DNA of 36,786 nucleotides from a virus. Below the pieces are notes generated by a model. It was given only the letters and a program-made list of their open reading frames with translations. It was not told the origin of the DNA and did no database searches. Both the position numbers and the translations under genes were made by a program. Shown piece by piece: positions 3,237 through 33,079 of the stretch (positions are counted from its first letter, which is position 1; each line of letters opens with the position of its first letter). Location of the stretch: the IMG/VR virus record IMGVR_UViG_3300036845_000567, positions 1 to 36,786 of that record, one strand, 5' to 3'.

Positions 3237-3584
3237 TTACAATGATTCTAAATCAAGTATACCAAGATTTCTGAAGGACATATGTTGAGGGTTTGAGCAC
3301 ATTTTATTGCCGCAGCGGGGTTTAGGAGTTTTATCTTTATCATAGGGAATATTTACCGTATGGCAGTATATATAAGCGCGCACTGAGAAGCTTCTTCCTG
3401 AAGAGGTGAAGGTGTATGATTTCAGCAACCAGCATCCTGAGTGATGGATGTATACGCAATTTTTTGCCTTACACAGGTCTGAGCAGAAAAATGATTTGCC
3501 CGCGGGAACTACCCACAACTGTAGATCTGCTAATGAGACATCGCGTTTACAGAATAAGCACTTGGCGAAATCGAATTTCTTCAT
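3237..3584 (-). CDS. HNH/His-Me finger endonuclease-like protein with a degenerate core
   Basis: A 115-residue Cys-rich protein. An N-terminal zinc-site pattern (C9, C12, C34, C38, C43) precedes a region resembling the zinc-binding loop of phage HNH endonucleases: HSGCW at about 48-52, then C91..C96-S-N-P-Q-H101, matching the usual C-x(3-4)-C-x-N-P-x-H signature. The basic Arg-Ala-His segment expected between them appears as RAYIYCH, so the first catalytic His seems to be lost or displaced. The start at 3584 overlaps the end of the upstream gene. HNH proteins often neighbour terminases and can help in DNA end cleavage; here the terminase is one gene away. An inactive zinc-binding protein is also possible. 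Confidence 0.7.
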   Translation of the reverse strand: MKKFDFAKCLFCKRDVSLADLQLWVVPAGKSFFCSDLCKAKNCVYIHHSGCWLLKSYTFTSSGRSFSVRAYIYCHTVNIPYDKDKTPKPRCGNKMCSNPQHMSFRNLGILDLESL

Positions 3585-14345: not shown

Positions 14346-16418
14346 TTAACCTTTATTCGCTAGTTTTGCTTCTAATTCTTCAACACGGGAGGTCAATTTC
14401 TGTAACTCGTTCAATAGGATAGAAGGTAATTCATGGTAACGAATAGTATAGGGATTGCCCGTGGCATCATAAGTAACAATGTGTGGCATGATAGTTGCTG
14501 TTTCTTCAGCAATTAATCCATACTGCATGGCATTAGTTACATCGCCTTTATATGAGAAGGTTACTGGTCGTAACTTCATCAAAGGAGAGCTCTTATCCCC
14601 CATATCCTTGATATTCTGTTTAAATCTTTCAGAAGAAACGGCAAGACCTAGTTGGCCCGTGGAAGTGTCAACAAGAACAGCACTGCCAGTGACGGTAGCA
14701 TTAGCTATACCAGCGATAAAGCATTTATTCTGTTGTGCGCTTCCTGCTCCTTCGGTTCCTATGTGAATTGTATGTGATTCACTAGCTACGCCTACATTGC
14801 CCACCAAGATATTACTTGTTTCACCAGAAGCATAAGCGCTACCAGCTAAGGCGCCTATAACCGTGTTATGGTCGCCTCCAAATGCAGAATTATTGAGAGA
14901 ATCATATCCTATAGAAGTATTGCGGTTACCACCGTTACCATTCTGAGAATTAGATCCTATTGCAACAGATTGATTAGTGCTCGAGGCATTACCAAATACA
15001 CTATTACCTATGCCAATGCTATCGGAAGCTCCAACGCTGGTGCTACCACCTATAACTATATTATTACTTCCATCTTGCATAGTAAGGGCAACTGTTGTTC
15101 CTGAGGCGAAGAATTGCGTAGTAGCTCCGGCTCCCAATGCCGTGATACTTATGGTAGTACCCGTAGAAGAACCAGAGTCCCCATCAATAAATTGAACTCC
15201 ACCGCCACCACCACCGGAAGTGCTTCCCATTTGTCCCGTTACAGGATCGATGATAACTGTTTGCGGTGTTCCACCTGGAGTAATTCCGCCAATACCTGCT
15301 ATATAACAGCCAGTTTGTGTAGAAGGATCTCCCAATCTAATATTGCCGTTCTCTAACGCCACGCCACTAGAGCCTATAAGAATATTGTTGCTTTCGCCAT
15401 CTCCGTACCCATTACCCGCATTTACACCAATAGCTATATTACTAGAACCATTGGTCAACGAGAGAAGAGCACTCGTTCCCAAAGCAGTATTATTACCCCC
15501 TCCTGTGTTCATAGCCTGGAGAGCACCATTGCCCAATGCGACATTAAGGGGAGCATCTGCATTACTAAGAAGTGCATTATATCCAATGGCAGTATTAGCT
15601 GACGCTGACGTGAAACTAAGCATAGTGCCATGGCCAAACCCAGTGTTCTGTCCACCAGTACCCGTTAGATTACCACTTGCATTTCCTATGAAAGTATTAG
15701 AATTTGTATCTTCTACAGAGAATTGTACCGTAGATCCTGAACCGGTAAACGCAGTAGATGATCCCGCAAGAGATGTGGAATCGAATGTTACGGTAGATCC
15801 TGTAGCAGATCCGGAATTGCCATCAAGTGTAGTTATTCCGCCACCACCACCTGAAGCATCAATAGTAATAGATCCTGCAGCATTGGTAATAGTTATATTT
15901 GTTCCCGCAGTAAGCGTGGCTAAGACGGGATCAGCACCGGTAGAACCGATAGGAATCTGTCCGTCAGCTGCAACCCCAAGAGAAGTAAGGCTATTAGTAG
16001 AATTACCAAGCTGTAGAGCATGGTTGGTTGTGCCTGATACGTTAAGGGTAACAGTAGCTCCGCTTGCAGCAGTAGTTATATTATGCCCACCAGCTAGTGT
16101 CACCGTAGTTCCAGTAGCAGCACCAGTATCGCCATCAAGCGTAACAATGCCCTGGCTCACTAAGGATCCTATAGTAATAGTGCCAGCACCATTAGATATA
16201 GAAATTCCCGTGCCAGCAGTAAGTGTTCCCAATACAGGATCATTGCTTGTGGAACCAATAGGTAGTTGTCCATTAGTGGCTGCAGGTAGAGCGCTTACCG
16301 CTCCAGCTGCGTCACCTTTAAGAAGTCCATGTATAGTTAAAGTATTAGCTCCTGTACCACCATTAGTGACTATAAGAGGCGTAGTTGAGTTCGCATTAAT
16401 TACGTTATTTGTTGCCAT
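14346..16418 (-). CDS. Tail fibre protein with S74 endosialidase-type chaperone domain, two shaft modules
   Basis: A 690-residue protein, AGGAG before the ATG at 16418. It lacks the virion-attachment module of its neighbours. Two shaft modules contain head-like repeats (NTAIGYNALLSN, NTALGTSALLSL) and each ends with a C-[YF]-IAGI block. From about residue 595 (SSERFKQNIKDM) to the end is a Peptidase_S74 intramolecular chaperone with LRPVTFSYK, YGLIAEE and a coiled coil (ELQKLTSRVEELEAKL). This domain trimerises the fibre and then cleaves itself off just before the conserved Ser. It probably attaches through a partner fibre protein. Confidence 0.88.
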   Translation of the reverse strand: MATNNVINANSTTPLIVTNGGTGANTLTIHGLLKGDAAGAVSALPAATNGQLPIGSTSNDPVLGTLTAGTGISISNGAGTITIGSLVSQGIVTLDGDTGAATGTTVTLAGGHNITTAASGATVTLNVSGTTNHALQLGNSTNSLTSLGVAADGQIPIGSTGADPVLATLTAGTNITITNAAGSITIDASGGGGGITTLDGNSGSATGSTVTFDSTSLAGSSTAFTGSGSTVQFSVEDTNSNTFIGNASGNLTGTGGQNTGFGHGTMLSFTSASANTAIGYNALLSNADAPLNVALGNGALQAMNTGGGNNTALGTSALLSLTNGSSNIAIGVNAGNGYGDGESNNILIGSSGVALENGNIRLGDPSTQTGCYIAGIGGITPGGTPQTVIIDPVTGQMGSTSGGGGGGVQFIDGDSGSSTGTTISITALGAGATTQFFASGTTVALTMQDGSNNIVIGGSTSVGASDSIGIGNSVFGNASSTNQSVAIGSNSQNGNGGNRNTSIGYDSLNNSAFGGDHNTVIGALAGSAYASGETSNILVGNVGVASESHTIHIGTEGAGSAQQNKCFIAGIANATVTGSAVLVDTSTGQLGLAVSSERFKQNIKDMGDKSSPLMKLRPVTFSYKGDVTNAMQYGLIAEETATIMPHIVTYDATGNPYTIRYHELPSILLNELQKLTSRVEELEAKLANKG

Positions 16419-17303: not shown

Positions 17304-17501
17304 TTATTCTGTGGATGACAACACCTCAGGAGCTTCTGTTGGGACAGCTTGAGCCGAATTCTCCTTCATAGTGATCATCTGATCTTTAAATTGTTGAAGC
17401 GCATCAATAGCATCGTCATAGGCAGACCCTAAAGGAATTGTTGCCCGGAACAAATGTCCATTAGTAGTTAGTTCAAGCGTAATTTCAAGCTTTTGGTTCA
17501 T
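17304..17501 (-). CDS. Small hypothetical protein in the fibre block
   Basis: A 65-residue protein starting MNQKLEITLELTTNG. GAGGAAG precedes the ATG at 17501, favouring it over an in-frame ATG at 17519. It overlaps the end of the large fibre gene by 17 bases. A beta-hairpin-like start is followed by a helical segment (AYDDAIDALQQFKDQM) and an acidic tail. This could be a fibre assembly chaperone, judging by position after a long fibre gene; not recognised. Confidence 0.6.
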   Translation of the reverse strand: MNQKLEITLELTTNGHLFRATIPLGSAYDDAIDALQQFKDQMITMKENSAQAVPTEAPEVLSSTE

Positions 17502-20115
17502 ATCTTCCTCTGTTTTCAAGATACTCTACTCGCCTCATAAGGCTCGCTATAATATTATGCTGCTTTTGAAGCTCGTTCAAGAGTAGTACAGGGAGATCGT
17601 GGTATCGAACCGTTTCTGGATCATTAACTTTGTTATAGGTTACTATGCCCGGAAACGAAGCGTGTACTTCCTCAGCTATGAGTCCGTACTGTAGTAGCCG
17701 AGTAGGATCGTTTTTATAGTTAAAGGTAACAGGACGCAAGTTCATGATGTTATTGCTAGCGTCATCCATATCTTCAATATTGTCTTTATAGCGACGAGAT
17801 GAAACTACAGTTCCAAGTTGTCCTGTACCGGTATTAATTAATACAGCAGCACTACTTGCGACGGTTACACCGGCTATTCCGGCTACGAAACAGGTATCTT
17901 GTTGCCCCGCACCAGAACCCTGAGTTCCAATTCGTATGACATTAGACTCAGAAACTGTTCCCGCATTCCCAATAACAATATTAGACGATTCAGAGGATGT
18001 ATAATTGCCGCCAGCTGAGTCCCCAACACCTATGTTATCAGCTCCTGTGATAATGAAATTAAGGCAGGTAGCGCCCAAGGCTGTATTATTTGCTCCTGTT
18101 GTTACGGTAAATAGAGCACCAGCGCCAATTGCAGTATTAGCTCCAGCAGAAGTACAAGATACTAGAGCGCCTTCCCCAACGGCTGTATTAGCAGATCCGC
18201 TAGTAAGGCCCAGTAAAGAACTGCGGCCGACACCAGTATTCTCAATACCAGATAGGGCCCCATTTCCTGACAAGGATCCAATAAAGGTATTAGCAGAAGT
18301 ATCAGTCACTTTAAGATCAACCGTTGAACCAGAGGCAACGAATTTAACCGAAGCTCCCGCATTGGAATTAGCATTAAGGGTTATGGTTGCTCCAGTTGCA
18401 GATCCTGTATCGCCATTGATAGTTACGCTTCCGCCAGAAGCTGTGCTTCCCATTTTTCCCGTGACAGGATCAATGATAACAAATTGAGGTGTTCCACCAG
18501 GGGTTACTCCGCCAATGCCCGCTATAAAGCATAGGGTTTGTATGGCAGGATCTCCCAGTCTTATAGTGGTGGTATCGCCAGGGGTTCCTGTATTGCCTAT
18601 GACAATATTAGACCCTTCTGATGCATTGTAAGATGACCCAGCCGCATAGCCAAGAGCAATATTACTATCGCCTCCAGAAAGAGCACCGAGAGCGCCTGTA
18701 CCTATCGCAGTATTCTTATTAGCATCAGCAGCACCTAATGACCCAGCACCTAGTGCAACGTTATTGGAGCCATCGGCTATAGTTGTCATAGACTCATATC
18801 CTATAGCGGTATTAAGCGTACCATTATCTATAGAAGGGAGAGTTCCGTATCCTAGTGAAGTATTTAAATTTCCTGCAACAGAGACATTTCCAGCGTTTAG
18901 GCCCAAGAAGGTATTTCGTAGGGATGAATCGGTAAGGTTAAGACTAACTGTAGAACCAGAAGCAGTGAATTTAACAGATTCCCCAGAAGCAGCTCCGGTG
19001 AACGTTATAGTCGATCCGGTTGCTGAACCAGTGTTGCCATCGATAGTTACAACTCCCGAAGAAGCGGTATTATTTATGGTTATAGAATTTGCGGCATTTA
19101 CAATGCTTATATTAGTCCCAGCAGTCAAATTTGCCCATATAGGAGCGGATGCGGTGGCACCGATAATTACTTGTCCATCAGTTCCAGGATATGACCCCAA
19201 GAATCCATTAGAATCAACAAACATGACCTGCTGATTAGTACCTACAGGAGTATTATAAATACCTGCTATGGCACATGCATCTTGTTCACCAGCACCAGTT
19301 CCCTGAGTGCCTATTCTGATAACATTTGATTCGCCAGTCACACCATCAGAACTAATAGTTATATTGGAGCTTTCTGATGAGGTATATGCAAAGGCTGAAG
19401 CAAAGCCAATAGCTATATTCCCATTGCCCGTTATTAGCCTTCCAAGAGACTGGCTTCCCAAAGCTGTATTGGAAGACCCTGATGTTATAGTGGGAGCCGA
19501 TTCATATCCCAACGCAGTATTATTGATACCATTTGTAGCGTGTAGAAGAGATATATTTCCGACTGCAGTATTCTTGGTACCAGTAACTAATGCGCTTAAT
19601 GCGCTGTTACCAATACCAGTATTCTGAACCGCGGAAGATGGGTTGAGGGTTGTATTTCCTGCCGTTATACCCACAAAGGTATTAGACGGGGGATAGGCAT
19701 ACGCAAATCTGAGTCCACCGAGCTCATATAATCCCTGGCTCCCAGCAGCGTTAGTAGCCGGCAAGTTGATATTAGGGGTTACAGCTACATTTACTGTGTT
19801 GGGTGCCATGGCAGAGGTGACTATATTTGCACCACCCAGCAGATTTATGACGCCCATTACAGGAGTAGCAGTGCCCGAATCGGTCACAATAGATGATATT
19901 GCTCCACTGGCATTCATGGATACCCACATGGCCACATTATCAACGATAGAAGTTATTATATAGGGAGTATTCGTTGGTTCATCTATCCATATGGTTCCTA
20001 TAGATGCCCTATCGTGGGTGGTAGGAGCTCTTTGTGAAACTATGGGAGCATTGGGAATACCAATAAGCGCCTGGCTTAACCCGTAGGCAACATTGCCCGG
20101 TTGAAATACTGACAT
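17485..20115 (-). CDS. Long tail fibre with S74 chaperone domain, three shaft modules
   Basis: An 876-residue protein with AAGGAGG before the ATG at 20115. Residues 1-75 are the virion-attachment module (NVAYGLSQALIG, RAPTTHDRASIGTIWIDE) shared with the next gene upstream. Three tandem shaft modules follow, each with NTF[VLI]G.., AIG/ALG head-like repeats and a C-x-[IV]AGI block; between them lie GNTGSATG linkers. From about residue 772 (SSRRYKDNIEDM) it ends in a Peptidase_S74 chaperone with LRPVTFNYK, YGLIAEE and a terminal coiled coil. The chaperone is normally released by self-cleavage after trimerisation. It shares its modular plan, with one module more, with 14346-16418. Confidence 0.9.
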   Translation of the reverse strand: MSVFQPGNVAYGLSQALIGIPNAPIVSQRAPTTHDRASIGTIWIDEPTNTPYIITSIVDNVAMWVSMNASGAISSIVTDSGTATPVMGVINLLGGANIVTSAMAPNTVNVAVTPNINLPATNAAGSQGLYELGGLRFAYAYPPSNTFVGITAGNTTLNPSSAVQNTGIGNSALSALVTGTKNTAVGNISLLHATNGINNTALGYESAPTITSGSSNTALGSQSLGRLITGNGNIAIGFASAFAYTSSESSNITISSDGVTGESNVIRIGTQGTGAGEQDACAIAGIYNTPVGTNQQVMFVDSNGFLGSYPGTDGQVIIGATASAPIWANLTAGTNISIVNAANSITINNTASSGVVTIDGNTGSATGSTITFTGAASGESVKFTASGSTVSLNLTDSSLRNTFLGLNAGNVSVAGNLNTSLGYGTLPSIDNGTLNTAIGYESMTTIADGSNNVALGAGSLGAADANKNTAIGTGALGALSGGDSNIALGYAAGSSYNASEGSNIVIGNTGTPGDTTTIRLGDPAIQTLCFIAGIGGVTPGGTPQFVIIDPVTGKMGSTASGGSVTINGDTGSATGATITLNANSNAGASVKFVASGSTVDLKVTDTSANTFIGSLSGNGALSGIENTGVGRSSLLGLTSGSANTAVGEGALVSCTSAGANTAIGAGALFTVTTGANNTALGATCLNFIITGADNIGVGDSAGGNYTSSESSNIVIGNAGTVSESNVIRIGTQGSGAGQQDTCFVAGIAGVTVASSAAVLINTGTGQLGTVVSSRRYKDNIEDMDDASNNIMNLRPVTFNYKNDPTRLLQYGLIAEEVHASFPGIVTYNKVNDPETVRYHDLPVLLLNELQKQHNIIASLMRRVEYLENRGRYEPKA

Positions 20116-31067: not shown

Positions 31068-32426
31068 TTATAAGGTAAGCGTGGCACGCAGGTTAATTAC
31101 CCACAAATCGTTGGTGATTCGGGGAACTTCTGCGAATTTATAACCAACACTTGCGTTAAGAGCTAAAGGCCCATCATAGATTGGCGGACGGTAGATAAAG
31201 CTTGCGCTATATCCGTCTTGTTCTATACAAGCATAGGCATCCATACCCACGCAGAAAATGTTGTACACATTTGCGTTAAGATATGATGCATTTGGCGTCA
31301 CAGAGCCAATAGACGATACTAGGAATCTTAAATTTCCAATGGCCCCCCACTCTGAACGGAGAGCGTTCATAGGAGCTGGATATTGGTTCTTTTGGATGAA
31401 TCCTGCAACGTTGTCTAAGTTACCTGTTAGCTGGGTAGAACAGAGAGCAAAATACGCATCACGAACTGGTGCTGTCGAATCTGTTACTTTAGTGACCTAT
31501 TGCTAGGCGGGGAAACCTCTTCGGATCTCCCTCTCTATGTTTCCATAGAGGTCAGACTATCGCATCCCCTTGCGGGGTTTCTTCACTTAGTCGTTCACGC
31601 TGCAAGGCAAATGCCAGCTTGCGCCCTGTCACCCCGAGGGGCTTCCAAGTCAATCAGAAGAAATTTAACGTCGGCACATATTTTACCGAACCTATCCTCA
31701 CCTTCCATGTTGTCCATGATCGTGTACGCATTATTGTTTAATAGCGTACGAACCACGGTATCAACATCAGATCGGGTGATTTCTGTCGGATTGTCTCCGT
31801 TTACACCACCCGTGCAGTTGATGAAAGCAGCAGTGCCTGCCAACATGTCTCTGGTAAGTTGGTCTTCCGTTTGGCGTAGAGAAACGCCCAATCGAGCAGC
31901 ACATTCATTAAGAACGGGATCCTGATTTTGGAGTGTAACCTGCTCATTAAGTGTTACATAAGTGCCATAGAAGCTGATTTTGGCGTCAATATCTATAGCC
32001 GTTAGATTTTGGGGAGGTGGTGTCACACCAGAATTTCCTAGTGGAACCATGGCGGTATTTAAGGGATTATAGCGTCGCATACGCAGCGTTGTACCGCCGT
32101 TGCGAGGCATAGCTTTCATCATTGCCGGGATCTTCAATCTGTTACTTTTGTGACCCTTTCGGGCGGGGAAACCTCTTCGGATCTCCCTCTCCATGTCGCC
32201 ATGAAGTTCAGACTATCGCATGCCATTACTGGCCCTTCTCACTTAGTCGTTCACGGTGCTTTCGCTTCCGCCTTGTAATCCTCTGGGGACGTCCAAGTCA
32301 ATTAGAGAAAGTTTTAGATCCACAAGTTTACCAATGGATCATATTAGGCACTGGGACACTCAAGAGCTTATAGCTGAAGCTCTGTTGTATCGGCGCTGGC
32401 AATGTACTTGTCGTAGTAATCGACAT
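31068..32426 (-). CDS. Major capsid protein, N4-gp56 type, three exons joined around two group I introns
   Basis: Exons on the minus strand are 32426-32334 (31 codons), 32134-31685 (150 codons) and 31475-31068 (135 codons plus stop). Joined, they give a 316-residue protein running ...VPVPNMIH|KIPAMMKAMPRNGG... and ...MEGEDRFG|TAPVRDAYFALC..., with smooth capsid sequence over both joints. LRMRRYNPL, YVTLNEQVTL, GNLRFLVSS and similar blocks are those of the N4-gp56 capsid family. The ATG at 32426 follows GAGGAG. Without splicing, exon 1 ends in a stop one codon past the junction and exon 2 stops inside intron 2, so capsid synthesis requires removal of both. The capsid lies between scaffold and decoration genes, as usual. 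Exon limits come from manual intron folding. Confidence 0.88.
31476..31684 (-). ncRNA. Group I intron 2 of the capsid gene (209 nt)
   Basis: 5' exon TCGGT pairs with guide GCCGA (31675-31671), placing a U-G pair at the splice site after 31685; the intron's last base is G (31476). P3 is TTTCTTC/GAAGAAA (31663-31657 with 31584-31578). P7 is GACTA (31592-31588) with TAGTC (31559-31555). P8 is CCCC-GCAA-GGGG. P9 is CTCTATG-GAAA-CATAGAG. Two more hairpins (P9.1, P9.2) lie before the 3' end. No ORF fits inside. Its 3' half shares a 29-base identical stretch with intron 1. The fold, done by eye, has every core helix expected of a compact ribozyme. Confidence 0.88.
32135..32333 (-). ncRNA. Group I intron 1 of the capsid gene (199 nt)
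   Basis: 5' exon GATCCAT pairs with guide GTGGATC (32323-32317), a 7-bp P1 ending in the U-G pair that marks the splice site after 32334; the last base is G (32135). P3 is CTTTCTC/GAGAAGG (32311-32305 with 32240-32234). P7 is GACTA (32248-32244) with TAGTC (32215-32211), P8 GCCA-GTAA-TGGC and P9 CTTCATG-GCGA-CATGGAG. P9.1 and a GAAA-capped P9.2 follow. There is no ORF inside. Compared with intron 2 the helices are kept while their bases differ, which is direct evidence of structure. Confidence 0.9.
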
Positions 32427-32617: not shown

Positions 32618-33079
32618 ATGTCCATAAAGATAAGAGAATTTAGAAGAGATCATACGCCTGAAGAATGTGCGTATATCGCTGGAATAATTGATACATGCGC
32701 TAGCTTTAAAATAAGCAAAAATCCAGATTGGTCATATGCTATGATGATAAGCTCTACCAATCGATCATTGATTGATTATATGGACAGAGTTATGGGTACA
32801 AAAGTGCTCTGTGAAGATACAACTCCTAGGCCTGGTCGCATGCATAATGATAAACTATACATGTCCAATAAAAGATATGTGTGGAGCGTTTACGGGATAT
32901 TATTAGACTATGTGTTAGAAATAACCAATAAATATTTAAATATTCAAAAGGGTAAATCAGACCTCATGATTAAATTTAGAAACACCTATAATAAGTCCGG
33001 TTTGCGAACTATTGTAACGCAAGACATTATTAAACAAAGAGAAGATTTGTTTGCAGAATTTCGAAAACTATATTTATAA
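32618..33079 (+). CDS. Free-standing LAGLIDADG-family protein with altered active site
   Basis: A 153-residue protein on the opposite strand to the surrounding head genes. AGAGGA precedes the ATG at 32618. Residues 19-30 (YIAGIIDTCASF) are a single LAGLIDADG motif followed by strand FKISKN, and the later YVWSVYGILLDYVLEI block plus IQKGKSDLMIKF fits the rest of that fold, as in dimeric homing endonucleases. The catalytic acid of the motif (second Asp) is Cys27, and the following Gly is Ala, so DNA cleavage is doubtful. Its end overlaps the scaffold stop by six bases, and it lies 191 bases upstream of the intron-split capsid gene. It could be the partner nuclease of the introns, a decayed copy, or a maturase-like RNA-binding relative. 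Confidence 0.85.
   Translation: MSIKIREFRRDHTPEECAYIAGIIDTCASFKISKNPDWSYAMMISSTNRSLIDYMDRVMGTKVLCEDTTPRPGRMHNDKLYMSNKRYVWSVYGILLDYVLEITNKYLNIQKGKSDLMIKFRNTYNKSGLRTIVTQDIIKQREDLFAEFRKLYL

Follow-up and report, generated by a model that had tools for sequence, protein, structure and literature searches.

Predicted group I introns in the major capsid gene of an uncultured phage, and the capsid-centred family to which they belong

How can a phage produce its major capsid protein from a gene that cannot be translated from end to end? The question is raised by a locus in IMG/VR virus record IMGVR_UViG_3300036845_000567, of which positions 1 to 36,786 (36,786 nt) constitute the window analysed here. 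The major capsid gene of this virus occupies 32426-31068 on the minus strand, with its ATG at 32426 and its stop codon at 31068, and its reading frame falls into three segments (codons 1-31, 32-181 and 182-316) between which inserts of 199 and 209 nt are located. Raw translation through both inserts encounters many stops. We are highly confident that the inserts are group I introns that are removed by splicing, and below we describe how they fit into a larger intron family that concentrates in the major capsid genes of phages.

A capsid gene read in three pieces

The three exons were delimited by the joined frame and by alignment to intronless loci, and all lie on the minus strand: exon 1 at 32334-32426 (codons 1-31, MSITTT...PNMIH), exon 2 at 31685-32134 (codons 32-181) and exon 3 at 31068-31475 (codons 182-316 and the stop codon). 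Excision at these borders yields a stop-free frame of 316 residues in which both joints are in phase 0. An initial annotation, made from the sequence of the window, had already described a capsid gene in three frames, and its coordinates for the breaks (32333-32135 and 31684-31476) proved to be exact, as did the group I borders (a U-G pair at the 5′ end and a terminal G) and the phase-0 joints by which it arrived at 316 residues. Its expectation that the joined protein should align with intron-free relatives was borne out by 80 uninterrupted IMG/VR loci, which match without a gap in the matched part at 83-96% identity and none of which encodes the inserts as protein. The joined protein is assigned to the N4-gp56-type major capsid proteins by its profile match to PHROG 1357 (major head protein, E=5.7e-31), while its score against Pfam PF25209 (Phage_capsid_4) is 25.6 bits, slightly under the cut-off of 27.

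The closest intronless relative, locus L002, shares 95.6% protein and 83% nucleotide identity with the window. Between the two capsid genes the rates of nonsynonymous (dN) and synonymous (dS) substitution are 0.04 and 1.25 (dN/dS approximately 0.03), and dN is far below dS in each exon taken separately. Purifying selection is thus strong in every exon, which indicates that the capsid gene is in use, and the two inserts must therefore be excised or bypassed.

Both inserts exhibit the features by which group I introns are recognized. Intron 1 (32135-32333, minus strand, 199 nt) follows codon 31 and intron 2 (31476-31684, minus strand, 209 nt) follows codon 181, and neither carries an open reading frame (ORF). 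The 5′ border of each falls at a U·G wobble within pairing element 1 (P1), which forms between the exon and the internal guide sequence (IGS) of the intron. For intron 1, P1 has 7 bp (GATCCAT/GTGGATC) and the IGS GTGGATC at 32317-32323 pairs with exon positions 32340-32334, whereas P1 of intron 2 has 5 bp (UCGGU/GCCGA) and the IGS GCCGA at 31671-31675 pairs with exon positions 31689-31685. At the other end, each intron closes with G, and its P10 pairing to the 3′ exon comprises 3 bp (CTT/AAG for intron 1, UGU/ACA for intron 2). The P7 5′ strand, GACTA, is found at 32244-32248 in intron 1 and at 31588-31592 in intron 2, where it pairs with TAGTC at 32215-32211 and 31559-31555, respectively.

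The proposed core was evaluated with a covariance model (R1) constructed from 36 short introns in the same capsid gene of other phages, with the window introns excluded. Its consensus has 41 base pairs, 35 of which show compensatory change (P1, P3, P7 and P8 among them). The GACTA/TAGTC helix of P7 is invariant in the 36 introns, and the outer pair at the bulge is A-U in 27, G-C in eight and C-G in one. R1 matches intron 1 with 187.7 bits (E=1.2e-62) and intron 2 with 209.5 bits (E=5e-70); these E-values are approximate because the calibration of the model was short, and the score margin is not in doubt. Covariation and R1 matches at E <1e-61 together support a group I core (P3-P8/P4-P6, and P7 with the bulge that forms the guanosine-binding site), in agreement with the class named in the initial annotation. 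No third intron was found upstream of the capsid gene with R1, whose best score elsewhere in the window was 10 bits.

The guides of these introns also fit the places where they reside. Among 77 introns of the family, the mean length of P1 is 6.5 bp with the intron's own exon and 3.1 bp with swapped exons (maximum 3.5 in 200 shuffles), and the corresponding means for P10 are 3.06 and 1.92 bp. Judged by their sequences, both inserts belong to the group I introns, and each is adapted to the site that it occupies. Each would fold into a group I core in which guanosine cuts after the exon U of the IGS wobble, and P10 and the terminal G would then guide ligation of the exons to restore the mRNA for the 316-residue capsid protein.

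The two introns had been ranked among the smallest of group I. Their size of approximately 200 nt stands, but it is not exceptional, as most ORF-less relatives measure 196-230 nt and the introns of the Jug gut phages, published in 2025, average approximately 206 nt (PMC12363816). The window introns are thus of the usual size for their family.

Frequency and gene specificity of the intron family

Two introns in one capsid gene appeared to be a rare arrangement when the window was first annotated, a view that an unselected sample of this phage clade does not support. Viral contigs were scanned with a degenerate exon pattern (approximately codons 46-54), which is independent of introns elsewhere in the gene. 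This provided 117 capsid loci, including 90 with the full gene, in which introns were called by spliced alignment. Introns are present in 46 of the 90 full-length genes (51%, 95% interval 40-62%): 22 genes have one, 12 have two, nine have three and three have four, such that 24 of the 90 carry at least two. When sequences are grouped at 95% identity, 87 clusters remain, and introns occur in 46 of these. Over all loci, introns ending in the family's 3′ motif occupy about 42 codon positions, a count that is approximate because not all borders around codons 88-98 could be placed with certainty, and 23 of these positions are used in at least two loci. The carrier of the window introns is an uncultured tailed phage, and its capsid family represents a widespread phage clade.

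Within these genomes the introns occur almost exclusively in the capsid gene rather than genome-wide, with the main caveat that introns of other families may escape R1 because the model was trained on capsid introns. Over the 117 loci, R1 finds 129 matches within capsid genes and eight outside them (in approximately 898 kb of flanking sequence). Six of the eight adjoin truncated capsid genes, and the remaining two are halves of one real exception. This is an intron of the same family in L272 (10441-10882, minus strand), distant from the capsid gene and split into two R1 matches. Similarly, in each of 27 whole contigs (23-42 kb) the R1 matches fall in one stretch of approximately 2-3 kb, with a clear outlier at 14978 in G004, and the general Rfam model adds no further intron place in these contigs.

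A broader pattern search based on the intron core alone returned at least 120 stretches, for which the genes were tallied from the matches listed. At least 37 loci belong to the capsid family of the window. The core was also located within or adjacent to genes of PHROG 283 (P22 coat type; at least 32 loci), PHROG 9953 (at least 23) and a group weakly related to PHROG 9953 (at least seven), all annotated as major head protein. Among the matches listed, these places outside the window's family have capsid sequence on both sides of the core in 34 cases and on one side in 34, and because of the latter some of the cores may sit at a gene edge. Genes for the tape measure (seven loci), the portal and the terminase account for most of the remaining places in those matches. 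When the P22 coat type was sampled without selection, eight of 80 loci were found to bear introns, 12 in all, each within approximately 1 kb of the capsid exon that was searched for. The preference for capsid genes therefore holds over capsid families unrelated in sequence, while the density of 51% pertains to the window's family alone.

Two side observations concern members of the family in other settings. In L098, L105, L106, L132, L169 and L174 it interrupts tail tape-measure genes, whose halves flank the core. In addition, positions 81312-81488 of Desulfovibrio phage 7757 (OR395405), a cultured 142-kb phage with an unannotated record, show 70% identity to most of intron 2, and this phage might therefore serve as a laboratory system for the family.

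Endonucleases and routes of spread

LAGLIDADG endonucleases related to I-MsoI and I-CreI are encoded in the longer capsid introns (approximately 500-1200 nt), in many cases on the antisense strand. Of 149 LAGLIDADG homologues, 118 reside within capsid introns, and almost all of these retain the catalytic acid motif. About a third of the capsid genes in the unselected sample (28 of 90) bear such a reading frame, and ORF-less introns are somewhat commoner in these genes (12 of 28) than in those lacking an endonuclease (13 of 62; p=0.04).

A tree of intron cores, built without the site-bound 5′ part, requires 33 site changes for 27 sites (34-39 in shuffles), and introns at the same site are accordingly only slightly clustered. 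Introns of the same gene require 11 changes against 11.4 when shuffled, which amounts to no clustering. Local duplication as the origin of the two window introns was rejected on this basis, and also because they are not nearest kin; the closest match to intron 2 sits at codon 184 in a different phage (88%). A search for two nearly identical alleles that differ in the presence of an intron found none, and hence a recent gain could not be observed directly. A search for hosts returned four contigs of metagenome-assembled genomes from four different phyla, which is not interpretable.

A free-standing ORF of 153 amino acids (32618-33079, plus strand) is located between the capsid gene and its upstream gene, in divergent orientation relative to the former. 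These two genes are separated by 647 nt in the window and by 255 nt in L002, where no such ORF is present. The predicted protein resembles an intron-borne ORF (tblastn E=6e-14), and its AlphaFold model (predicted local distance difference test, 87.5) has the LAGLIDADG fold according to Foldseek matches to I-MsoI (E=1.5e-6) and I-CreI. The motif reads IIDTCAS rather than IIDGEGS, with cysteine in place of the catalytic acid, and thus from its sequence we consider the protein LAGLIDADG-like and do not class it as an active endonuclease. Two readings suggest themselves: an endonuclease that has worn out, or a protein retained for a non-cutting role, for example as a maturase. An HNH label (PHROG 5046, E=8e-4) was dropped in favour of LAGLIDADG. 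A second free-standing LAGLIDADG-like ORF was noted between the terminase and portal genes of L265 (13370-13864, minus strand), with the motif IIDSCGS.

In the account we favour, one intron family specialised on major capsid genes would have invaded the capsid gene repeatedly at many positions. When a cell is co-infected, the LAGLIDADG endonucleases nested in longer introns would cut the alleles that lack introns, and as the break is repaired on the intron-bearing template, the ORF-less introns of the same gene would be carried along (co-conversion). Free-standing LAGLIDADG relatives might sometimes assist, and cores would be exchanged repeatedly between sites. Spread mainly by DNA-level homing and co-conversion of the whole capsid gene is the least certain part of this account, and we consider it about as likely as not.

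Several points weigh against what we propose. Homing to one conserved site alone fails to explain the frequent site changes of the cores, and homing by endonuclease genes alone fails to explain the preference for capsid genes that are unrelated in sequence. The LAGLIDADG relative in the window lacks the catalytic acid, and it therefore provides no evidence for active homing in this phage. Splicing in the cell is presumed from established knowledge of the group I class. Finally, the matches to the Rfam model RF00028 that the initial annotation anticipated for both segments did not reach the gathering cut-off of 50 bits, as intron 2 scores 21.7 bits and intron 1 yields no score. At the gathering score, neither the window nor four intron-rich loci give any Rfam match. 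This score is a detection threshold and not a biological criterion, and 27 related records likewise fall under it while RF00028 recovers its controls. The test fails because the model fits the capsid-intron family poorly. Since the family scores below the Rfam cut-off in every tested record, annotation will probably report the capsid genes of such phages as fragments and make the phages seem to lack a capsid gene.

The difficulties with homing leave room for spread at the RNA level, in which an excised intron reverse-splices into the abundant late capsid mRNA at sites matching its IGS, and the resulting cDNA recombines into phage DNA. This route would suit the range of targets (several sequence-unrelated capsid families and the tape-measure gene), the finding that cores sharing a site are frequently not each other's sisters, and the lack of a nuclease in most ORF-less introns. 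However, it requires a reverse transcriptase, none of which turned up although no systematic search was made, and related cores at different sites have new matching guides, such that simple reverse splicing is not a one-step source. We therefore judge it unlikely. An extension of the idea, that the family's target is the major capsid gene as such, whichever of the sequence-unrelated capsid families it belongs to, through reverse splicing into the most abundant late mRNA, strikes us as distinctly unlikely; if true, the capsid gene would be a hot spot of RNA-level insertion and not a set of homing sites.

A further proposal would add to the favoured account of homing and co-conversion rather than replace it. 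The ORF at 32618-33079 might encode a catalytically dead maturase that aids the folding or splicing of ORF-less introns in trans. Its significant homology to intron-borne ORFs and its predicted I-CreI-like fold are consistent with such a role, as are its position beside an intron-bearing gene, its absence from the intronless nearest relative, and the cysteine that L265 also has at the catalytic position. These are two cases only, however, and with 27% identity and other motif residues lost the protein may simply be a decaying endonuclease, which makes the maturase role a long shot.

That the gene is decaying, or truly split to encode three proteins with the inserts as unspliced spacers, would accord with three separate frames interrupted by stops and with the low Rfam scores, but the low dN/dS in every exon, the precise in-frame borders at both joints and the covarying group I core make this scarcely credible. 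An assembly chimera, as might be suspected for a single uncultured record with no near-identical record found, is just as improbable, because both sites bear introns in other independent records (codon 31 in L099, L217, L264 and L306; codon 181 in L108, L130, L144, L244 and others) and at both sites the IGS fits the local exon.

Elsewhere in the window, two long repetitive tail-fibre-like proteins are encoded at 14346-16418 and 17485-20115 (minus strand). They have similar ends that resemble the peptidase S74 chaperone domain by eye, and they are probably paralogues. A small Cys/His-rich protein encoded at 3237-3584 (minus strand) resembles an HNH-type endonuclease by eye and has no match in Pfam or PHROG.

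Comparison with known systems

Fungal cox1 accumulates introns, and in this respect it is comparable to the capsid gene described here. Among phages, the nearest precedent is LittleE, a Cluster J mycobacteriophage (Pope 2013) with one probable group I intron of approximately 819 nt in its major capsid gene, whose splicing was proven by RT-PCR (reverse transcription PCR) and by N-terminal sequencing of the capsid protein, and which has a LAGLIDADG-like reading frame on its reverse strand (PMC3706429). We take a further case, the capsid intron of lactococcal phage Tuc2009, from its citation in that article. LittleE resembles the window in having a U at the end of the 5′ exon and a G at the end of the intron, and in the gene affected. 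It differs in that it represents a single intron in one phage, whereas the window contains two ORF-less introns of approximately 200 nt and belongs to a clade that uses about 42 sites.

The Jug phages (360-402 kb) have introns as small as those of the window, approximately 18 per genome in many genes (for example, terL and nrdD), and metatranscriptome reads support the splicing of 37 of 76 that were tested (PMC12363816). Their introns are distributed over many genes, in contrast to the near restriction to capsid of the window's family in phages of approximately 37 kb. For the free-standing ORF, the relevant comparison is with I-CreI and I-MsoI, which share their fold and sequence profile with both the intron-borne and the free-standing ORFs; the window copy departs from them by having cysteine for the catalytic acid and by standing outside any intron.

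Phages with one capsid intron, and phage introns of small size, are thus known already. We found no description in the literature of an intron family specialised on capsid genes at such density, which is weak evidence with most subscription journals lying outside the search. With about 42 sites, matched guides, intron-free alleles and nested endonucleases, the family makes the choice and change of site by ORF-less introns directly testable.

The introns of T4-, SPO1- and Twort-like phages (in td, nrdB, nrdD, DNA polymerase and other genes) are self-splicing group I introns like those proposed here, some of them with homing endonucleases. They favour genes of DNA metabolism, and the preference of group I introns for genes of nucleotide synthesis and DNA metabolism 'has remained mysterious' (PMC12350094, 2025). 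The family represented in the window favours major capsid genes instead, and a single intron family is thus concentrated in the gene that encodes the protein most abundant in the virion rather than in the DNA-metabolism genes thought to be favoured.
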